Assembly (NCBI GenBank): GCA_937996665.1
Contig: CALKUU010000290.1
Span: forward strand, 1 to 33,880
Source: an uncultured Xenococcaceae cyanobacterium
Lineage (GTDB): Bacteria; Cyanobacteriota; Cyanobacteriia; Cyanobacteriales; Xenococcaceae
Length of the DNA stretch: 33,880 nt
Reading direction: 5' to 3'
Shown here: positions 5,592 to 17,424 of the stretch, one piece after another
How the letters are laid out: every line of letters starts with the position of its first letter
Position numbering within the stretch: position 1 is the stretch's first letter
Translations under genes and position numbers: made by a program
The notes under the pieces: model-generated
What the model was told of the DNA's origin: nothing
What the model saw: only the letters and a program-made list of their open reading frames with translations
The model's database searches: none

Positions 5592-7067
5592 ATGGCTCTA
5601 ATCATTGCAGGAGAACGTTCTGGGGTGGGCAAAACCACCATCACCTTGAGCATTCTTGCTTTTTTGGCTCAGCAAAAAAATAAACGAATTCAAAGTTTTA
5701 AAGTTGGCCCCGATTATATTGACCCGATGTTTCATCGGGCGATTACGGGGGTTGCTGCTCGTAATCTAGACCCGATCCTCACTTCACCCAGTTATGTCAG
5801 TAGTTGTTTTAACCTTCATAGTACTGCTGCTGACTATAGTTTGATTGAAGGAGTGATGGGTCTGTTTGATGGGGTGAAATTTCCTGGTTCTGAGATCTTG
5901 GACTATGCCAGCACTGCTCATGTTGCCCGTATTTTGGATATTCCTGTTCTGCTGGTCTTAGACTGTGCCAAATTATCAGGATCAATCGCCGCGATCGCTA
6001 AGGGTTTTAGCATCCTCGACCCCCAAATAAAAATAATTGGAGTTGTTTTAAATCGGGTAGCTAGCGATCGTCATTTGGAACTGCTCACCGAGGCTTTAGC
6101 CCAGATTCAGATGCCGATTTTGGGAGTGCTGCGCCGTCACGAGCAAATTGCTATTCCTGATCGTCATTTAGGACTCGTTCCAACAGTTGAACTACCCGAG
6201 CTAAATCAAATTGTTGAAAAACTAGCTCATCTCGCCCAAGAAGCTTTTAATTGGCAACGATTACTTCCTCTTTTGAAATCCTCTGTTAGTAATAATCAAT
6301 CAGCAATTAGGATGCGAAGCAGTATTTCTTTAGACAATCAGCAATTAACAATCAGCAATCAGCCAATCAGAATTGCCATAGCCCGCGATCGCGCCTTTAA
6401 TTTCTATTACCAAGATAATTTGGATTTATTCGGGGAACTAGGGGCTGAGGTGATTGAGTGGAGTCCTTTAGCTGATCAAGAAGTCCCCCAAAATGTATCT
6501 GGGTTTTATTTTGGGGGTGGTTTTCCCGAAGTCTTTGCCGAAGAATTAGCTGCCAATAAAATAATTTTGCAACAACTCCGAAGCTTGATCGCGAGCAATA
6601 TTCCGGTCTATGCCGAATGTGGGGGGTTAATGTATCTTTGCGATCGCCTGATTGACTTAGAAGGTAGAAGTTGGCAACTGGTGGGGTCAATCCCCGCTAC
6701 TACAACTATGCAAGCTAGGCTTAAGCTTGGTTATCGTCAAGTTCTTCCCTTGAATTTGGCTCTTAATTCACCTTTCCAAAAACCGACTTCCCTCAATAAA
6801 AACTCCCTACTCTCTTCATTGCCAATCCCTCATCAGCTCTGGGGACACGAATTTCATCGCTCCGAGCTAACCACAAAGATTTCTCATCCACTTTGGCAAG
6901 TTCGCGGACTTGGTGATTTAAGTAAATCGAATAGCCAAGGGAGAATAGAAGGGTGGAACTACAAAAATATTCATGCCTCCTATATTCATCTTCATTGGGG
7001 CGAATCTAAATTTTTATTTACAAAATGGCTTGATTCTTGTCGAGATTATCGAAATCAGTTAGCATAA
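5592..7067 (+). CDS. cobB: Cobyrinic acid a,c-diamide synthase (CobB/CbiA)
   Basis: The 491-residue enzyme amidates the a and c side chains of (hydrogeno)cobyrinate with ATP and glutamine in cobalamin biosynthesis. The N-terminal dethiobiotin-synthetase-like ATPase domain opens with the P-loop GERSGVGKTT (K14) and contains KVGPDYIDPMFH and EGVMGLFDG. The C-terminal class I glutaminase domain has the nucleophile C343 in YAECGGLMYL and the late histidine region YIHLHWGE. The linker between the domains (about 235-256) is longer than usual and is built from repeats of a short sequence (separate entry). It starts with ATG, 89 bp after mrdA. The ECF Co/Ni uptake genes about 16 kb away would supply a relevant metal if the substrate is cobalt. 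Confidence 0.93.
   Translation: MALIIAGERSGVGKTTITLSILAFLAQQKNKRIQSFKVGPDYIDPMFHRAITGVAARNLDPILTSPSYVSSCFNLHSTAADYSLIEGVMGLFDGVKFPGSEILDYASTAHVARILDIPVLLVLDCAKLSGSIAAIAKGFSILDPQIKIIGVVLNRVASDRHLELLTEALAQIQMPILGVLRRHEQIAIPDRHLGLVPTVELPELNQIVEKLAHLAQEAFNWQRLLPLLKSSVSNNQSAIRMRSSISLDNQQLTISNQPIRIAIARDRAFNFYYQDNLDLFGELGAEVIEWSPLADQEVPQNVSGFYFGGGFPEVFAEELAANKIILQQLRSLIASNIPVYAECGGLMYLCDRLIDLEGRSWQLVGSIPATTTMQARLKLGYRQVLPLNLALNSPFQKPTSLNKNSLLSSLPIPHQLWGHEFHRSELTTKISHPLWQVRGLGDLSKSNSQGRIEGWNYKNIHASYIHLHWGESKFLFTKWLDSCRDYRNQLA
6297..6374. repeat. Short CAATCAGCAATTA-type repeats in the cobB interdomain linker
   Basis: CAATCAGCAATTA appears twice exactly (6297-6309, 6335-6347), followed by shorter variants (6349-6360, 6364-6374). 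The repeats encode asparagine/glutamine-rich linker residues such as NNQSAI and DNQQLTISNQP, between the ATPase and glutaminase domains. They resemble the short tandem repeats common in cyanobacterial spacers, here tolerated inside a gene. Confidence 0.6.
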
Positions 7068-7104
7068 TCTCATTCGAAAGAACAAAATAACCATTTAGGA
7101 ATAT

Positions 7105-7371
7105 AGGAGGTGATGCCCATGATTGAAAGTAGTATTATCTTGGGTTTCCAGATCGATAATAGCCGACTGTGTGCCGAGGCTGTTCTCTAAGGAACTGCTT
7201 CTAGTCCTATCTCCGATAGGCAGCATAGATGTGACTTGCTTGAGTTCCTCTCGGCAGTCAGGTTTCGGTTAGGAAACCCTACTAGACCGCTTTCACTTAT
7301 TAGGCAGAAAATAGGTTGTAATTTACTTTACTCCTGGTTCTGTTGTCCTAGTGAAAGCGGATAGCTTTTTT
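7105..7371 (+). ncRNA. Candidate two-domain structured RNA between cobB and the J-domain gene
   Basis: A rod-like domain is closed by GGGTTTCC (7142-7149) pairing with GGAAACCC (7272-7279). Inside it are a roughly 15/12-nt internal loop, then GAC plus TGCCGAG pairing with CTCGGCA plus GTC, then AGGAACT/AGTTCCT, then an apical hairpin CCTATC-tcc-GATAGG. A second domain follows at once: an 11-bp perfect stem CCGCTTTCACT (7287-7297)/AGTGAAAGCGG (7350-7360), with minor inner pairing, and a T6 run (7366-7371). A single rod with a central bubble recalls 6S RNA, and a cyanobacterial 6Sa gene is one candidate, but I do not recognise the sequence. RNase P RNA, tmRNA and cobalamin-riboswitch signatures were not seen. 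A cis-acting leader for the J-domain gene is the other option. The 5' end is not defined. Confidence 0.5.
7119..7190 (+). CDS. Possible 23-residue peptide ORF with very strong Shine-Dalgarno
   Basis: ATG is preceded, at 8 nt spacing, by AGGAGG within AGGAGGTGAT (7105-7114), a 10-base complement to the 16S rRNA 3' end and the strongest ribosome-binding site noticed in the window. The ORF encodes a 23-residue peptide beginning MIESSIILGF and ends in TAA inside the structured RNA. Its codons cover the 5' arm of the closing stem, so translation would compete with RNA folding. It could be a leader peptide, or the site may recruit ribosomes for another reason. No homologue is known to me. Confidence 0.3.
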   Translation: MIESSIILGFQIDNSRLCAEAVL

Positions 7372-7419
7372 AAGAGGTATTTTGCTTTTTAGGGATGTTT
7401 CTTAGCAGGGGTTTTTCGA

Positions 7420-8145
7420 GTGAACCATTATCAAACTCTTCAGGTTAGTCCTCAGGCATCAATAAAAGAAATAAAGTTGGCTTATCGTAAGTTAGCTAAG
7501 CTCTATCATCCCGATACTAATGCTGCTGTTAAGAAGTCGTCTGCCCAGGCTGTTTCTCCTAGCAACGATAAAATTATTACCATTAACGCTGCTTACGAAA
7601 TTTTGAGTAATCCTCAGTCTCGTCGTCAGTACGATCAGTTGCTGCAATTAGGCACTACTTACGAATCTCTTTGTGAAAGACAGGCTCGCACCGCAAAAGC
7701 CTCTCAAGCTTACAGTCGTAATCGTCGTCGTCCGGACAGTAGGCGACAAACCCTTAGCTATCAAGAATGGATTCAGGTTGTCTATATTCCTAGCGATCAC
7801 AGTATCCAAGATATTATTCAACCATTAGACATCGAAATCGAGAATTTATCCGCAGACCCTTTCGATGACGAGCTATTGGCAGATTTTCAGATCTACTTAG
7901 AAGACTGTCGTCATCATTTACAACTTGCCAAGCAGAGATTTGCCATCTATCCGAATCCGCCGCAGTTAGCTAATGTCGCAGTCAACTTCTACTACTGTCT
8001 AAATCATATTGAGGATGGGATTAAAGAGCTAGAATATTTTGCCCTTAATTATGATGAACATTATATTCATACTGGACAGGAGCTTTTCAGAATTGCTAGC
8101 GGTCTAAGATCTGAAGCTGAAAATAGTGTCAGTTCTGTATTTTAA
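7420..8145 (+). CDS. J-domain (DnaJ-like) protein
   Basis: The 241-residue protein has an N-terminal J domain (about 1-78) with YRKLAKLYHPDTN; the HPD tripeptide needed to stimulate Hsp70 ATPase is at 30-32, and the helix IV end EILSNPQSRRQYDQLL is clear. There is no G/F region, zinc-finger domain or C-terminal substrate domain of DnaJ, so it is a type III J protein. The remaining 160 residues are mostly helical and acidic (FDDELLADFQIYLEDC) and probably give client or localisation specificity. The start is GTG with a weak AGGGG nearby. It follows the structured RNA by about 50 bp, so that RNA may be its leader. Confidence 0.82.
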   Translation: MNHYQTLQVSPQASIKEIKLAYRKLAKLYHPDTNAAVKKSSAQAVSPSNDKIITINAAYEILSNPQSRRQYDQLLQLGTTYESLCERQARTAKASQAYSRNRRRPDSRRQTLSYQEWIQVVYIPSDHSIQDIIQPLDIEIENLSADPFDDELLADFQIYLEDCRHHLQLAKQRFAIYPNPPQLANVAVNFYYCLNHIEDGIKELEYFALNYDEHYIHTGQELFRIASGLRSEAENSVSSVF

Positions 8146-13905: not shown

Positions 13906-13923
13906 TTGTCATCAACCGTCACT

Positions 13924-16900
13924 ATGAATAGCCAGGGTAATTTTTCAGAACCAAACGATCTCAAAGTTCAACAGCCAGCCAATGAATGTAATGATTCAAA
14001 TCAAAGTTCTTTGAGTGGTTCAAATACTCAGGATTCAATTTTAGAAGAGAACAATCAAATGAATGATCCTGGTGACAAACAGACAGTAGTGCAGCAAGAT
14101 TTTTCTGCTGATAAGCAAACGGTAGTACAGCAAGATGGCTTGGCTGGTAAACAGACAGTAGTACAACAAGATTTTCTTACTGATAAGCAAACAGTAGTGC
14201 AGCAAGATGGCTTGACTGACTTATCTGTAGATGATTTATCTGCATTAGATGAACTAGAGTCAGGCGATTTAAACTTAATCGATAGTACGGTTGATGATAC
14301 TAATGATTTACTTCCCTTCATTAATAGTGGGAATGGTTCTTCCGAAAACAATCTTGGAGAATTATCAGAATTAGGCGCTCAAGATTTAGAATTGGGTGAA
14401 GATGCCAACCTAGACCCATTAGATCTAAATTTAGAGGTGTCAGATATTGCTCCAAACGATATTTCAGGTAGTGATGATTTAAATCTAGACTTTGACGGTG
14501 ACTCTCTAGATCTAAATTTAGAGGTGTCAGATATTGCTCCAAACGGCATTTCAGGTAGTGATGATTTAAATCTAGACCTTGATGGCGACTCTCTAGATCT
14601 AAATTTAGAGGTGTCGGATATTGCTCCAAACGGCATTTCAGGTAGTGATGATTTAAATCTAGACTTTGATGATTCCTTAGATTCCTTAGAAGGATTCGAC
14701 TCTTCAGAAATGGAGGAGCTTTCCCAAGATAATGGTCTGGAGCTTGGTGATCTAAATCTTGGTCTTGAAGATGTCTCAGCTACTTTAGAGATGAAAGATT
14801 TAGAGCTTGACGATTCCAAGGATGCTCTAGGTGAAATGAGTTTGTTAAGTGAATTGGGAAGTCTGGATGATTTGTTGTCAGGGGCAAAAGCGAGTTCAGT
14901 ATCAACTCCAGTAGTTGGAAAAGCTCCTGTTGTCATCTCTAAGGCAACAACGTCCTACAATAGACCACAAAAAAATGTTCCGTCAAAAGTTCAAACCTTC
15001 GACCAGACTATGCGGGTGTCGGTGCGAAAATTAGATGATCTTAATAACTTGATTGGAGAGCTAGTAGTTAAAAGGAATCGTTTAGAAGAAGATCAAGAGA
15101 GAATTCGTCGCTTCATGGATAATCTTCTCAATTATGTTCAGTCTCTTGGTGAGATGGGCGGAAAAATGCACGATCTTTATGAGCGATCGCTCTTAGAAGG
15201 CGCCCTCATGGCTAGCCGAAATCAAAGTCAATCCTCTTCTGGTAAAAAACAACGTTCCAGTTTTTTGGAAGAAGATGAAGTAGAAGAAAGTAATGAATTA
15301 GATGCTCTAGAGCTAGATCGCTTTACTGGATTTCACCTTCTTTCTCAAGACATTATCGAGCTAATTGTCAGGGTAAGAGAAGCCGCTTCAGATATTCAGT
15401 TTGTTGTTGATGAAACGGACAAGGTTACTCAATCTTTAAGGCAAGTTACCTCTCAATTGCAAGATGGAATGAATTCCTCTCGCATGATGCCTTTTGGTCA
15501 AACTACAGATCGCTTACCTCGGGCAATTCGAGACATTTCTCGTAAATTGAAGAAGCAAGTTAAATTGCAAATCGAAGGGAAAGACGTTCTCATCGACAAG
15601 ATGATTGTAGAAAGTCTCTATAATCCCATGACTCACTTAGTCAACAACGCAATTACCCACGGCATTGAAACTCCTGAAGAGCGAGTTAAGCTAGGAAAGC
15701 CTGAAAACGGAACCATTTTAATTAGAGCATTTCTGCAAGGAAATCAAACGGTAATCACAATTGCTGATGACGGTGCTGGCATTGATCCAGAAAGAATAAA
15801 AGCAAAAGCCGTTGAGAAAGGAATGCTCACTTGGGCAAAAGCTCAAGAATTAACCAATCCAGAAACTTATGATTTGATTTTCCATGCTGGGTTCAGCACG
15901 AAAGATCAAGCCGATGATTTTGCCGGTCGTGGTGTTGGGATGGACGTTGTTAATACAGACCTAACCAAGATTCGGGGAACGATTAGTATTGAGTCAGAAG
16001 TCGGAAAAGGGACAACCTTTATTATTCGTCTACCACTAGTATTGAGTATTTGTAAGGCAATTAGCTGTGTCTTTAACAACACACGTATTGCCTTTCCTCT
16101 TGATGGTGTTGAAGCGCAAAAAGAATATCTACCCAACGAAATTATTACTGACCCCAATGGAGTTAAGCAGATTTCTTGGGAAGGAGATCTGCTTCCCTTC
16201 CAACCTTTAAGTAATCTTCTTCTCTATAATCGTCAGTTAAATCGAGGTGGGGTTTATAACCTCAATAAAGAGGATGATTTTATTTCGATAATTATTCTGC
16301 GGAGTGCCGATAATCTAATGGCGGTTCAGGTAGATCAGATTATTGGGGAGCAAGAAATTGTTATTAAACAAATTGAAGGACCTGTTCCCAAGCCATCGGG
16401 TATTACTGGGGCAACAGTATTGGGTGATGGCGTTGTTATGCCGATCGCTGATGTTCTCGAACTAATCGAAATTGCTCAAGGTAAGAGAACTATTGAGCTT
16501 GGATTTAATGTTTGGGAAGACAATGATAGTAAGCAAGCGGATGAGCTTTCCTCTGAGCCTACTGTATTGGTTGTCGATGACTCGATTACGGTAAGAGAAC
16601 TACTAACTCTGAGTTTTACCAAACTTGGTTATCGCGTAGAGCAAGCTAGAGATGGTCAAGAAGGCTGGGAAAAACTTCGTGGTGGCTTACCTTGTGACAT
16701 GATTTTCTGTGATATCGAAATGCCGAGAATGAACGGTTTAGAGCTGTTGTCTAATCTGCAAAAAGATGAGCAACTAAAATATATTCCGATGGCGATGTTA
16801 ACTTCTCGTGGAGCGGATAAACATCGGAAGTTGGCTACAGATTTAGGAGCTAAGGCATATTTGACCAAGCCCTACACCGAAAAGAACTTAATGGATGTGG

Positions 16901-17424
16901 CTCAAAATTTAATTGAAATTAGTAGAGCCCATAAAGAAGAGACTCAAAAGGAAAGTTCGAGAAAAGAAAAAATTGATCGTAGCAATAACAATTCGGCTAA
17001 AGTTAAAACTGACCCTGTTGTTTTGATTATTGATGATTCGGTAACCGTAAGAGCCTTGCTTTCAATGACGTTTAAAAAAGCCGGTTATCAAGTTGAACAA
17101 GCTCGTGATGGTCAAGAAGCATTAGAAAAACTAAAAGATGGTTTAGCTTGTGATATTGCTTTTTGCGACATTGAGATGCCGAGAATGAATGGTTTAGAGT
17201 TGTTAGCTAACCTTCAGGAAGATGAGGAACTCTCTGGTTTGCCAATGGCAATGCTGACCTCTCGCGGAGCACAAAAAATGAGAAATATTGCTGCCCAAAG
17301 GGGTGCTAAGGGATATTTTGTTAAGCCTTATGTTGAAGAAACATTGTTAGATGCAGCCAAAAGAATGATGGACGGTGAAGTTCTCATTGACTCTGTTAAT
17401 TTTGATGATCAAGATATGGAATAG
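13924..17424 (+). CDS. CheA-like hybrid histidine kinase with two C-terminal receiver domains and no visible HPt
   Basis: The protein is about 1166 residues. The N-terminal 300 are acidic and repetitive: four 12-residue QTVVQQD repeats, then three 29-residue LDLNLEVSDIAPN repeats. From about 360 come the CheA dimerisation region (TMRVSVRKLDDL) and the HATPase core with the N box HLVNNAITHGIE (H571), DDGAGID, FHAGFSTKD and GRGVGMDVV, then a CheW-like domain. Two receivers follow, with phospho-acceptors D930 and D1082 (both FCDIEMPRMNG-like). No HPt histidine motif is visible, so phosphotransfer probably needs a separate protein; split CheA pairs such as Hik36/Hik43 of Synechocystis PilL are the precedent. 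The role is probably twitching motility or phototaxis. I chose the first ATG over a TTG six codons upstream. No pil or che genes adjoin it. Confidence 0.85.
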   Translation: MNSQGNFSEPNDLKVQQPANECNDSNQSSLSGSNTQDSILEENNQMNDPGDKQTVVQQDFSADKQTVVQQDGLAGKQTVVQQDFLTDKQTVVQQDGLTDLSVDDLSALDELESGDLNLIDSTVDDTNDLLPFINSGNGSSENNLGELSELGAQDLELGEDANLDPLDLNLEVSDIAPNDISGSDDLNLDFDGDSLDLNLEVSDIAPNGISGSDDLNLDLDGDSLDLNLEVSDIAPNGISGSDDLNLDFDDSLDSLEGFDSSEMEELSQDNGLELGDLNLGLEDVSATLEMKDLELDDSKDALGEMSLLSELGSLDDLLSGAKASSVSTPVVGKAPVVISKATTSYNRPQKNVPSKVQTFDQTMRVSVRKLDDLNNLIGELVVKRNRLEEDQERIRRFMDNLLNYVQSLGEMGGKMHDLYERSLLEGALMASRNQSQSSSGKKQRSSFLEEDEVEESNELDALELDRFTGFHLLSQDIIELIVRVREAASDIQFVVDETDKVTQSLRQVTSQLQDGMNSSRMMPFGQTTDRLPRAIRDISRKLKKQVKLQIEGKDVLIDKMIVESLYNPMTHLVNNAITHGIETPEERVKLGKPENGTILIRAFLQGNQTVITIADDGAGIDPERIKAKAVEKGMLTWAKAQELTNPETYDLIFHAGFSTKDQADDFAGRGVGMDVVNTDLTKIRGTISIESEVGKGTTFIIRLPLVLSICKAISCVFNNTRIAFPLDGVEAQKEYLPNEIITDPNGVKQISWEGDLLPFQPLSNLLLYNRQLNRGGVYNLNKEDDFISIIILRSADNLMAVQVDQIIGEQEIVIKQIEGPVPKPSGITGATVLGDGVVMPIADVLELIEIAQGKRTIELGFNVWEDNDSKQADELSSEPTVLVVDDSITVRELLTLSFTKLGYRVEQARDGQEGWEKLRGGLPCDMIFCDIEMPRMNGLELLSNLQKDEQLKYIPMAMLTSRGADKHRKLATDLGAKAYLTKPYTEKNLMDVAQNLIEISRAHKEETQKESSRKEKIDRSNNNSAKVKTDPVVLIIDDSVTVRALLSMTFKKAGYQVEQARDGQEALEKLKDGLACDIAFCDIEMPRMNGLELLANLQEDEELSGLPMAMLTSRGAQKMRNIAAQRGAKGYFVKPYVEETLLDAAKRMMDGEVLIDSVNFDDQDME
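14074..14217 (+). repeat. Four tandem 36-bp repeats in the CheA-like gene
   Basis: The repeats encode four 12-residue units with the core KQTVVQQD and alternating ends (DFSA, DGLA, DFLT, DGLT). The units differ at several silent and coding positions, so this is an older expansion than the 87-bp repeats that follow. Confidence 0.85.
14421..14672 (+). repeat. Three tandem 87-bp repeats in the CheA-like gene
   Basis: Each unit begins AGATCTAAATTTAGAG and recurs at exactly 87-bp spacing (14421, 14508, 14595); the third copy is incomplete at its end. They encode 29-residue acidic units with LDLNLEVSDIAPN and SGSDDLNLD. Near-identity at DNA level points to recent expansion. Confidence 0.9.

Follow-up and report, generated by a model that had tools for sequence, protein, structure and literature searches.

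The window, i.e. the whole 33,880-nt stretch of DNA analysed here (contig CALKUU010000290.1 of an uncultured Xenococcaceae cyanobacterium), carries this genome's copy of an RNA gene that is spread through the cyanobacterial class and is in all probability ncl0160, and this RNA may act as a ribosome-gated switch; we assign the reading as a whole, switch included, a probability of roughly 0.4. Sequence comparison leaves next to no doubt that a genuine and old gene for a structured RNA is present and that its ORF is conserved. It occupies positions ~7073-7371 of the plus strand as a stand-alone gene and comprises, in this order, promoter-like boxes, a leader motif, a Shine-Dalgarno sequence, the ORF, a rod-like structure and an intrinsic terminator. 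The gap is flanked by a cobB-like gene (5592-7067, CobB/CobQ domains) upstream and a J-domain gene (7420-8145, DnaJ) downstream.

The near-perfect Shine-Dalgarno sequence AGGAGGTGAT (7105-7114, plus strand) and the 23-codon ORF MIESSIILGFQIDNSRLCAEAVL (7119-7190, plus strand, stop codon TAA 7188-7190), both pointed out in an earlier note on this DNA, could be read directly from the letters; the start codon ATG (7119-7121) follows AGGAGG by 8 nt and ...GAT by 4 nt. The Shine-Dalgarno sequence combined with ATG at the same spacing (AGGAGGTGATNNNNATG) was found once in the 4.15-Mb assembly, and the 10-mer alone seven times as compared with eight for the reversed control. A search by DNA similarity located the element at one place each in 57 of 60 genomes, the genome of the window included; in five of them the match falls into two parts. 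The Shine-Dalgarno sequence and the start were present by pattern in all 57 loci, and GGAGGTG is invariant in the 41 rows of the alignment derived from full-length copies.

The plus strand of 7080-7380 was predicted to fold with -102.9 kcal/mol (z -5.0, none of 100 shuffles as stable), in agreement with the earlier statement that so much complementarity is not expected by chance. The minus strand of this segment also reached z -3.9 (0 of 100 shuffles), and the counts of covariation refer solely to the plus strand. The rod (7142-7279, plus strand) is closed by helix P1 (7142-7149/7272-7279 and 7150-7156/7265-7271), whose outer strands GGGTTTCC (7142-7149) and GGAAACCC (7272-7279) were read directly, and continues via P2 (7162-7168/7256-7263 and 7173-7179/7249-7255) and P3 (7182-7187/7242-7247) into a variable apical part (7188-7241). 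The overlap between ORF and rod described in the earlier note is real, but it extends beyond the end of the ORF, whose entire second half forms the 5' strand of the rod. The intrinsic terminator (7282-7371, plus strand) follows with the arms CTAgaCCGCTTTCACT (7282-7297) and AGTGAAAGCGGaTAG (7350-7364) and T6 (7366-7371). Its 11-bp stem, also noticed earlier together with the T6 and equally legible in the letters, pairs CCGCTTTCACT (7287-7297) with AGTGAAAGCGG (7350-7360) and is extended by CTA 7282-7284/TAG 7362-7364. The two arms are separated by a variable insert of 52 nt, and a simple terminator scan, which accepts loops of 3-8 nt only, did not find any terminator. The motif ACCGC and the 3' arm were detected by pattern in 53 of the 57 loci.

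Covariation lends support to both the rod and the terminator. In the 41 rows their 43 pairs are formed in 98.1% of the cells as compared with 30.3-49.3% when the partners were slid by 1-3 columns, a percentage which favours the structure because the structure was derived from the same rows. Changes on both sides were observed for 23 of the 43 pairs (125 cells), the shuffles yielding on average 11.0 pairs and 34.5 cells, and none of 500 shuffles reached the observed values; the stems are therefore kept in relatives with compensatory changes. The rod contributes 16 of its 30 pairs, with 94.1-100% of the cells paired per helix, and the terminator 7 of 13. A local hairpin inside the ORF, CCGGC-UGNGN-GCCGG, was rejected as the main fold since only two of its pairs changed on both sides, which was matched by 130 of 500 shuffles. 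It is paired in 96.6% of the cells, one of its pairs being broken in four rows that keep the rod pair at this place, and it is retained only as a minor alternative.

A 6Sa-like RNA had been suggested in the earlier note, and the long rod with internal bulges would speak for it. The probability of this assignment is close to nil since the segment did not match the Rfam model RF00013 at E 10 and the 6S RNA of this genome was detected elsewhere, on contig C92 (72.5 bits). At the gathering score no family of Rfam 15 matched the window or 20 of the 57 first loci, and none matched the segment even at E 10.

A covariance model (R1) built from the 41 full-length rows matched 242 of the 291 genomes of the class, including 219 of the 261 of high quality, and 122 of 131 genera. 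There was one match per genome, except for genome G096 with two (contigs C112 and C329). Among the 20 misses listed, of 49 in total, were six small genomes of family f34, which we read as Prochlorococcus-like, and seven members of a single genus of family f49. A draw across the whole phylum gave matches in 59 of 146 genomes, one of them outside the class. This out-of-class match (L243, G391:C14:104399-104501, E 1.8e-5) was not counted since a different hydrophobic peptide is encoded behind a similar Shine-Dalgarno sequence; at this place AAAGGAGGTGATGCCTATG precedes a short hydrophobic ORF and a hairpin, and in spite of the nearly identical start region the locus is probably unrelated to the RNA family. 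A search of named genomes with a pattern that already demands Shine-Dalgarno sequence, start and stop returned at least 115 stretches, and all titles listed were cyanobacterial, ranging from Pseudanabaena and Leptolyngbya to Nostoc, Planktothrix and Thermosynechococcus. No copy was detected with one Nostocales-type query in 72,556 plasmid and 50,697 phage records, or by exact pattern in viral contigs.

The counts that follow refer partly to 203 unique loci, a set whose filter already demanded a short ORF. Left out beforehand were L002 (6S), L224 and L229-L233, and L227 failed the filter for ORF length; L224 is a real marine member in a mis-centred reading, the same place being read as L235. 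Flanking ORFs were found upstream of 155 and downstream of 193 of these loci, with gene names assigned by eye from the sequence except for the two genes of the window. The upstream neighbours, always in the same orientation as the RNA, include psbD-like (35) and cobB-like (34) genes, and the downstream neighbours pterin-dehydratase-like (67), porin-like (38), cysK-like (12) and J-domain (6) genes. The earlier proposal of a translation-coupled leader of the J-domain gene 7420-8145 draws on an arrangement that is found in the window and a few other loci (6 of 193); in other lineages other genes are located downstream, and the covarying terminator lies between the RNA and the J-domain gene, so that such a leader appears extremely improbable. 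The absence of a constant neighbour together with the promoter-like boxes and the terminator rather indicates a gene of its own. A psbD-like gene was seen directly upstream in many lineages (L034, L038, L046, L050, L051 and others), and many contigs end 300-600 nt before the RNA begins, as one would expect with a multi-copy gene at that place. Elsewhere in the window, ORFs of 102 and 185 amino acids (14321-14629 and 14379-14936, minus strand) lie opposite a chemotaxis-kinase-like gene (13906-17424) and are probably shadow ORFs.

The promoter-like boxes (TTGTCG 7037-7042 and TAGCAT 7060-7065, plus strand, 17 nt apart) are located inside the 3' end of the cobB-like gene, and transcription is predicted to start near 7073. 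This copy is weak: a promoter scan picks the neighbouring register (9/12) and found two sites as compared with 1.2 expected. In 13 Pleurocapsa-like loci the arrangement TTGC..-17-TATATT is kept at at least 90%, and 48 Nostocales-like loci share the consensus TgTGtTATa farther upstream (capitals at least 90%, lower case at least 60%). The conservation of the boxes may partly be explained by the coding sequence of cobB. The leader motif ACCATTTAGG (7090-7099, plus strand; consensus ACCGTTTAGGGA) is located directly 5' of the Shine-Dalgarno sequence and was present in 51 of the 57 loci by a loose and in 42 by a strict pattern. It is similar in Thermosynechococcus-like and Gloeobacter-like copies and was not seen in the marine form.

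This marine form belongs to genomes of family f34 of about 1.9-3.7 Mb, which we read as marine-Synechococcus-like. They mostly carry AGGAGGAGGTG and a 17-codon ORF of the type MSSSCLTQGLLIAENAG followed by the stop, with a 9-bp helix starting from codon 9 and an immediate terminator. Hardly any variation is seen in the helices adjacent to the ORF, and two-sided changes, observed for 7 of 42 pairs, are confined to the terminator. In the marine-Synechococcus-like loci L214-L226 the end ...QGLLIAENAG of the 17-codon version was seen to be strongly conserved in most cases, together with a terminator type of their own. Thermosynechococcus-like genomes also have a 17-codon ORF (MADSSKRLGRRFG..QL), and locus L208, which is probably from Gloeobacter violaceus, has the ORF MSIPGTSLNLRTANGRLCAGAVAL. 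Common to all forms is a plan of Shine-Dalgarno sequence, start, about eight codons, a helix in which codons farther along the ORF take part, and a terminator.

In all probability the RNA is a member of the ncl0160 sRNA family, a match that is based on the published description and not on sequence. The sRNA ncl0160, which Mitschke et al. 2011a had already identified in Synechocystis (as cited in PMC4734099), was predicted from transcript data and described as widely conserved in cyanobacteria, with 83 homologs in 89 genomes searched, the marine lineage excluded (Brenes-Alvarez et al. 2016, PMC4734099). According to the parts of that paper used for comparison, it encodes a conserved and probably translated peptide of 23-25 amino acids, the ribosome-binding site is always present, the starts are mostly ATG with few GTG, and the stops are 47 TAA, 34 TAG and 2 TGA. 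The present family shows every tested feature stated there, namely the short ORF with a ribosome-binding site, an ATG or GTG start and a TAA, TAG or TGA stop, and the wide spread in non-marine cyanobacteria (242 of 291 genomes of the class). Conservation, peptide length, ribosome-binding site, starts and all three stops are thus alike in the Synechocystis and Nostoc family as far as described in this text. The suggestion that the DNA encodes a new small RNA holds for the small RNA, and its newness is, measured against the same description (PMC4734099), mostly wrong. In the parts considered, and leaving the structure of its Figure S2 aside, the 2016 text does not describe a start hairpin, a marine form or a mechanism, nor does it analyse covariation (PMC4734099). 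Relative to that text, again leaving Figure S2 aside, the start-codon hairpin that shares its GGG with the closing helix is new here. In the literature searched the name ncl0160 occurred in no other paper and no functional study of it was found; in the part considered of the table of Voss et al. 2009 (PMC2662882) it was not recognisable.

The ORF is intact with 23 or 24 codons in 56 of the 57 unselected loci, and all 56 start with ATG and end with TAA or TAG. The sole frame-broken ORF (L042, G036:C174) was observed to have a 1-nt deletion in an otherwise conserved RNA, which is possibly a sequencing error because this genome is 86% complete. Among the 203 unique loci the ORF comprises 23 (162 loci), 24 (24), 17 (15), 22 (1) or 34 (1) codons, starts with ATG (200) or GTG (3) and ends with TAA (114), TAG (79) or TGA (10). 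On the tree of the element, the 160 ORFs of 23 codons show 216, 232 and 273 changes at codon positions 1, 2 and 3, a difference that is not significant (p 0.23). For codons 19-23 the changes amount to 6, 16 and 50, position 3 being highest in each of the five. Changes of the third base of the stop (24) and one-codon changes in length (10 on a wider tree) constitute weak evidence for translation because the 23/24-codon set was selected for those two lengths and a terminal stop; the changes in length may partly result from slippage in the AGT repeat. Translation therefore looks selected as far as can be judged from the codons. The loop codon 18 varies freely (C, R, S, W), which together with the non-significant signal over the whole ORF argues against a constraint on the whole peptide and not against translation, and selection may act on the last residues and not on the peptide as a whole.

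These data also bear on the main rival reading, i.e. a small mRNA whose product is the 23-residue peptide and whose rod and terminator only set the translation rate and stability of the message. Such a role would be in line with the preserved frame, start and stop, with the third-position excess in codons 19-23 and with the combination of Shine-Dalgarno sequence and start that is found once in the genome. Codons 2, 7, 10, 11, 14 and 18, however, change freely and non-conservatively, yet the base pairs are kept at 98.1%, and the C-termini differ in the divergent lineages, where 17-codon ORFs end in LIAENAG or QL. Taking both sides into account, a plain mRNA seems somewhat unlikely.

Codons 4 and 5 are nearly fixed as AGT (143 and 154 of 160), and the synonymous AGC or TCN is absent. 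Conservation at the nucleotide level could point to a base-pairing dual-function sRNA that would bind target mRNAs through the open AGUAGU or the 3' strand of the rod, with the ORF of secondary importance, and a stand-alone gene with its own terminator would suit such an sRNA. The frame would then not need to be kept, and the AGUAGU repeat is missing from the marine rows of alignment A4, which makes this role quite improbable.

Our preferred reading of a ribosome-gated switch is based on a second, competing structure. The three bases before the start codon and the start codon itself (CCCAUG) are complementary to CAUGGG in codons 7-9; in the window this start hairpin S (7116-7144, plus strand; CCCATG 7116-7121 with CTTGGG 7139-7144) forms 5 of 6 pairs, with one mismatch. 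Since S shares its GGG with the closing helix P1, the two exclude each other. Among 180 main-clade loci 173 have GGG at this place and seven lack it; all six pairs of S are possible in 140 of the 173, five in 31 and four in two. These counts, as well as those of codon changes, folding and the tree, were made after the divergent 23/24-codon loci L204, L205, L208, L211, L213 and L222 had been dropped, and the 34-, 22- and 17-codon forms lie outside them. In alignment A1 S is paired in 94.7% of the cells as compared with 17.6-48.6% in slid positions. S cannot covary and its shuffle control is uninformative (500 of 500) because one of its sides hardly varies. Of the 173 loci, 165 have C or T as the third base before GGG although the amino acid is free there, and this base underwent six pyrimidine/purine changes on the tree as compared with 32 and 25 at the two preceding bases. 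The second base before GGG is unpaired in 21 of the 173 loci, and the sixth, which lies outside S, is equally slow with six changes.

Partition-function folding of the 173 loci, a thermodynamic model without shuffled control, predicts an exchange between the two structures. In the leader alone, ending 75 nt downstream of the A of ATG, S has a mean probability of 0.89 (above 0.5 in 161 loci) and the AUG is unpaired with 0.10. When the sequence is extended to 262 nt, the mean for S drops to 0.14 (above 0.5 in 20), the AUG is unpaired with 0.42 and the GGG is paired downstream with 0.86 (above 0.5 in 153). From leader to full RNA the AUG is predicted to open by more than 0.2 in 112 of the 173 loci and to close in seven; the mean unpaired probability of the Shine-Dalgarno sequence hardly moves (0.37 to 0.45). 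For the window copy the modelled AUG goes from 0.43 to 0.72, and in the full RNA the Shine-Dalgarno sequence (about 7107-7116) is predicted to form a hairpin with about 7132-7141. In the Pseudanabaena-type L209 the AUG is predicted to open only from 0.04 to 0.18. For eight divergent loci (marine, Thermosynechococcus-like, Gloeobacter-like and others, L204, L208 and L213 being folded among these examples) no clear opening of the AUG is predicted, and in L204 it closes. Start hairpin and rod might accordingly be mutually exclusive in such a way that the start becomes accessible when the RNA is complete and the rod is opened again by translation, which we put forward tentatively on the basis of the modelling. 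The earlier idea of a competition between ribosome binding and folding appears to be right in principle, but the rod itself leaves the start unhidden and a separate start hairpin is predicted to hide it.

In the proposed mechanism an RNA of about 300 nt, independently transcribed and ended by the terminator, would carry a translated 23-codon ORF. As the 5' part emerges, CCCAUG would pair with CAUGGG and shut the start codon. Once the 3' strand of the rod has been made, P1 would take over the GGG and the AUG would open beside a very strong Shine-Dalgarno sequence. An initiating ribosome would then have to pull the rod apart, since the 5' strand of the rod is formed by the second half of the ORF. 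The start hairpin could re-form behind the ribosome, and therefore about one ribosome would load at a time. The state of the rod, which is either folded or so opened that its conserved 3' strand is released, would report whether ribosomes are initiating, and the last residues of the peptide may modulate the stop. The further step, in which the RNA gates itself with the ribosome as ligand and its state, read by a putative partner, reflects the availability of initiating ribosomes, is more speculative and by itself unlikely.

A comparable order of events is known from the hok and aapA type I toxin mRNAs, in which a short-range 5' hairpin shuts the start during transcription until it is replaced by a long-range pairing. 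In these systems the finished full-length RNA is inactive, and they include an antisense RNA and a peptide that acts as a membrane toxin. The RNA described here resembles them in the modelled early short-range hairpin that shuts the start and is later replaced by long-range pairing, and differs from them in that the finished form is predicted to open the AUG and the peptide is not membrane-like, no long hydrophobic stretch being visible by eye in MIESSIILGFQIDNSRLCAEAVL and its relatives. With SgrS/SgrT and Norf4 (PMC5126843) and RNAIII (PMC1242208) it has in common, as far as the cited passages go, that a small RNA contains a short ORF; in contrast to these, the ORF is here one strand of the main covarying helix. 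Yfr6 of Prochlorococcus, a structured RNA of 244 nt that may code for a short peptide, is similar in these respects according to the passages considered; it differs in its frame of 33 residues, which begins at nt 97, and gave a northern signal in two of the four strains tested (Axmann et al. 2005, PMC1242208). The model of the marine form (R2), in contrast, had no credible match in six small Prochlorococcus-like genomes: it found nothing in five, and its match in the sixth (G155, E 0.034) is without such an architecture.

An RNA with covarying pairs that most genomes of the class retain, usually in a single copy, and that has a shortened marine form and a probable Gloeobacter member, probably belongs to the core of RNA biology in cyanobacteria. 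The alignment, the structure, the terminator and the proposed switch between start hairpin and rod make the question testable by point mutations in tractable strains. If the proposed mechanism is true, the start of this RNA would open only once the rod is complete in the main clades of oxygenic cyanobacteria, and the ribosome loaded there would tear the rod open again.
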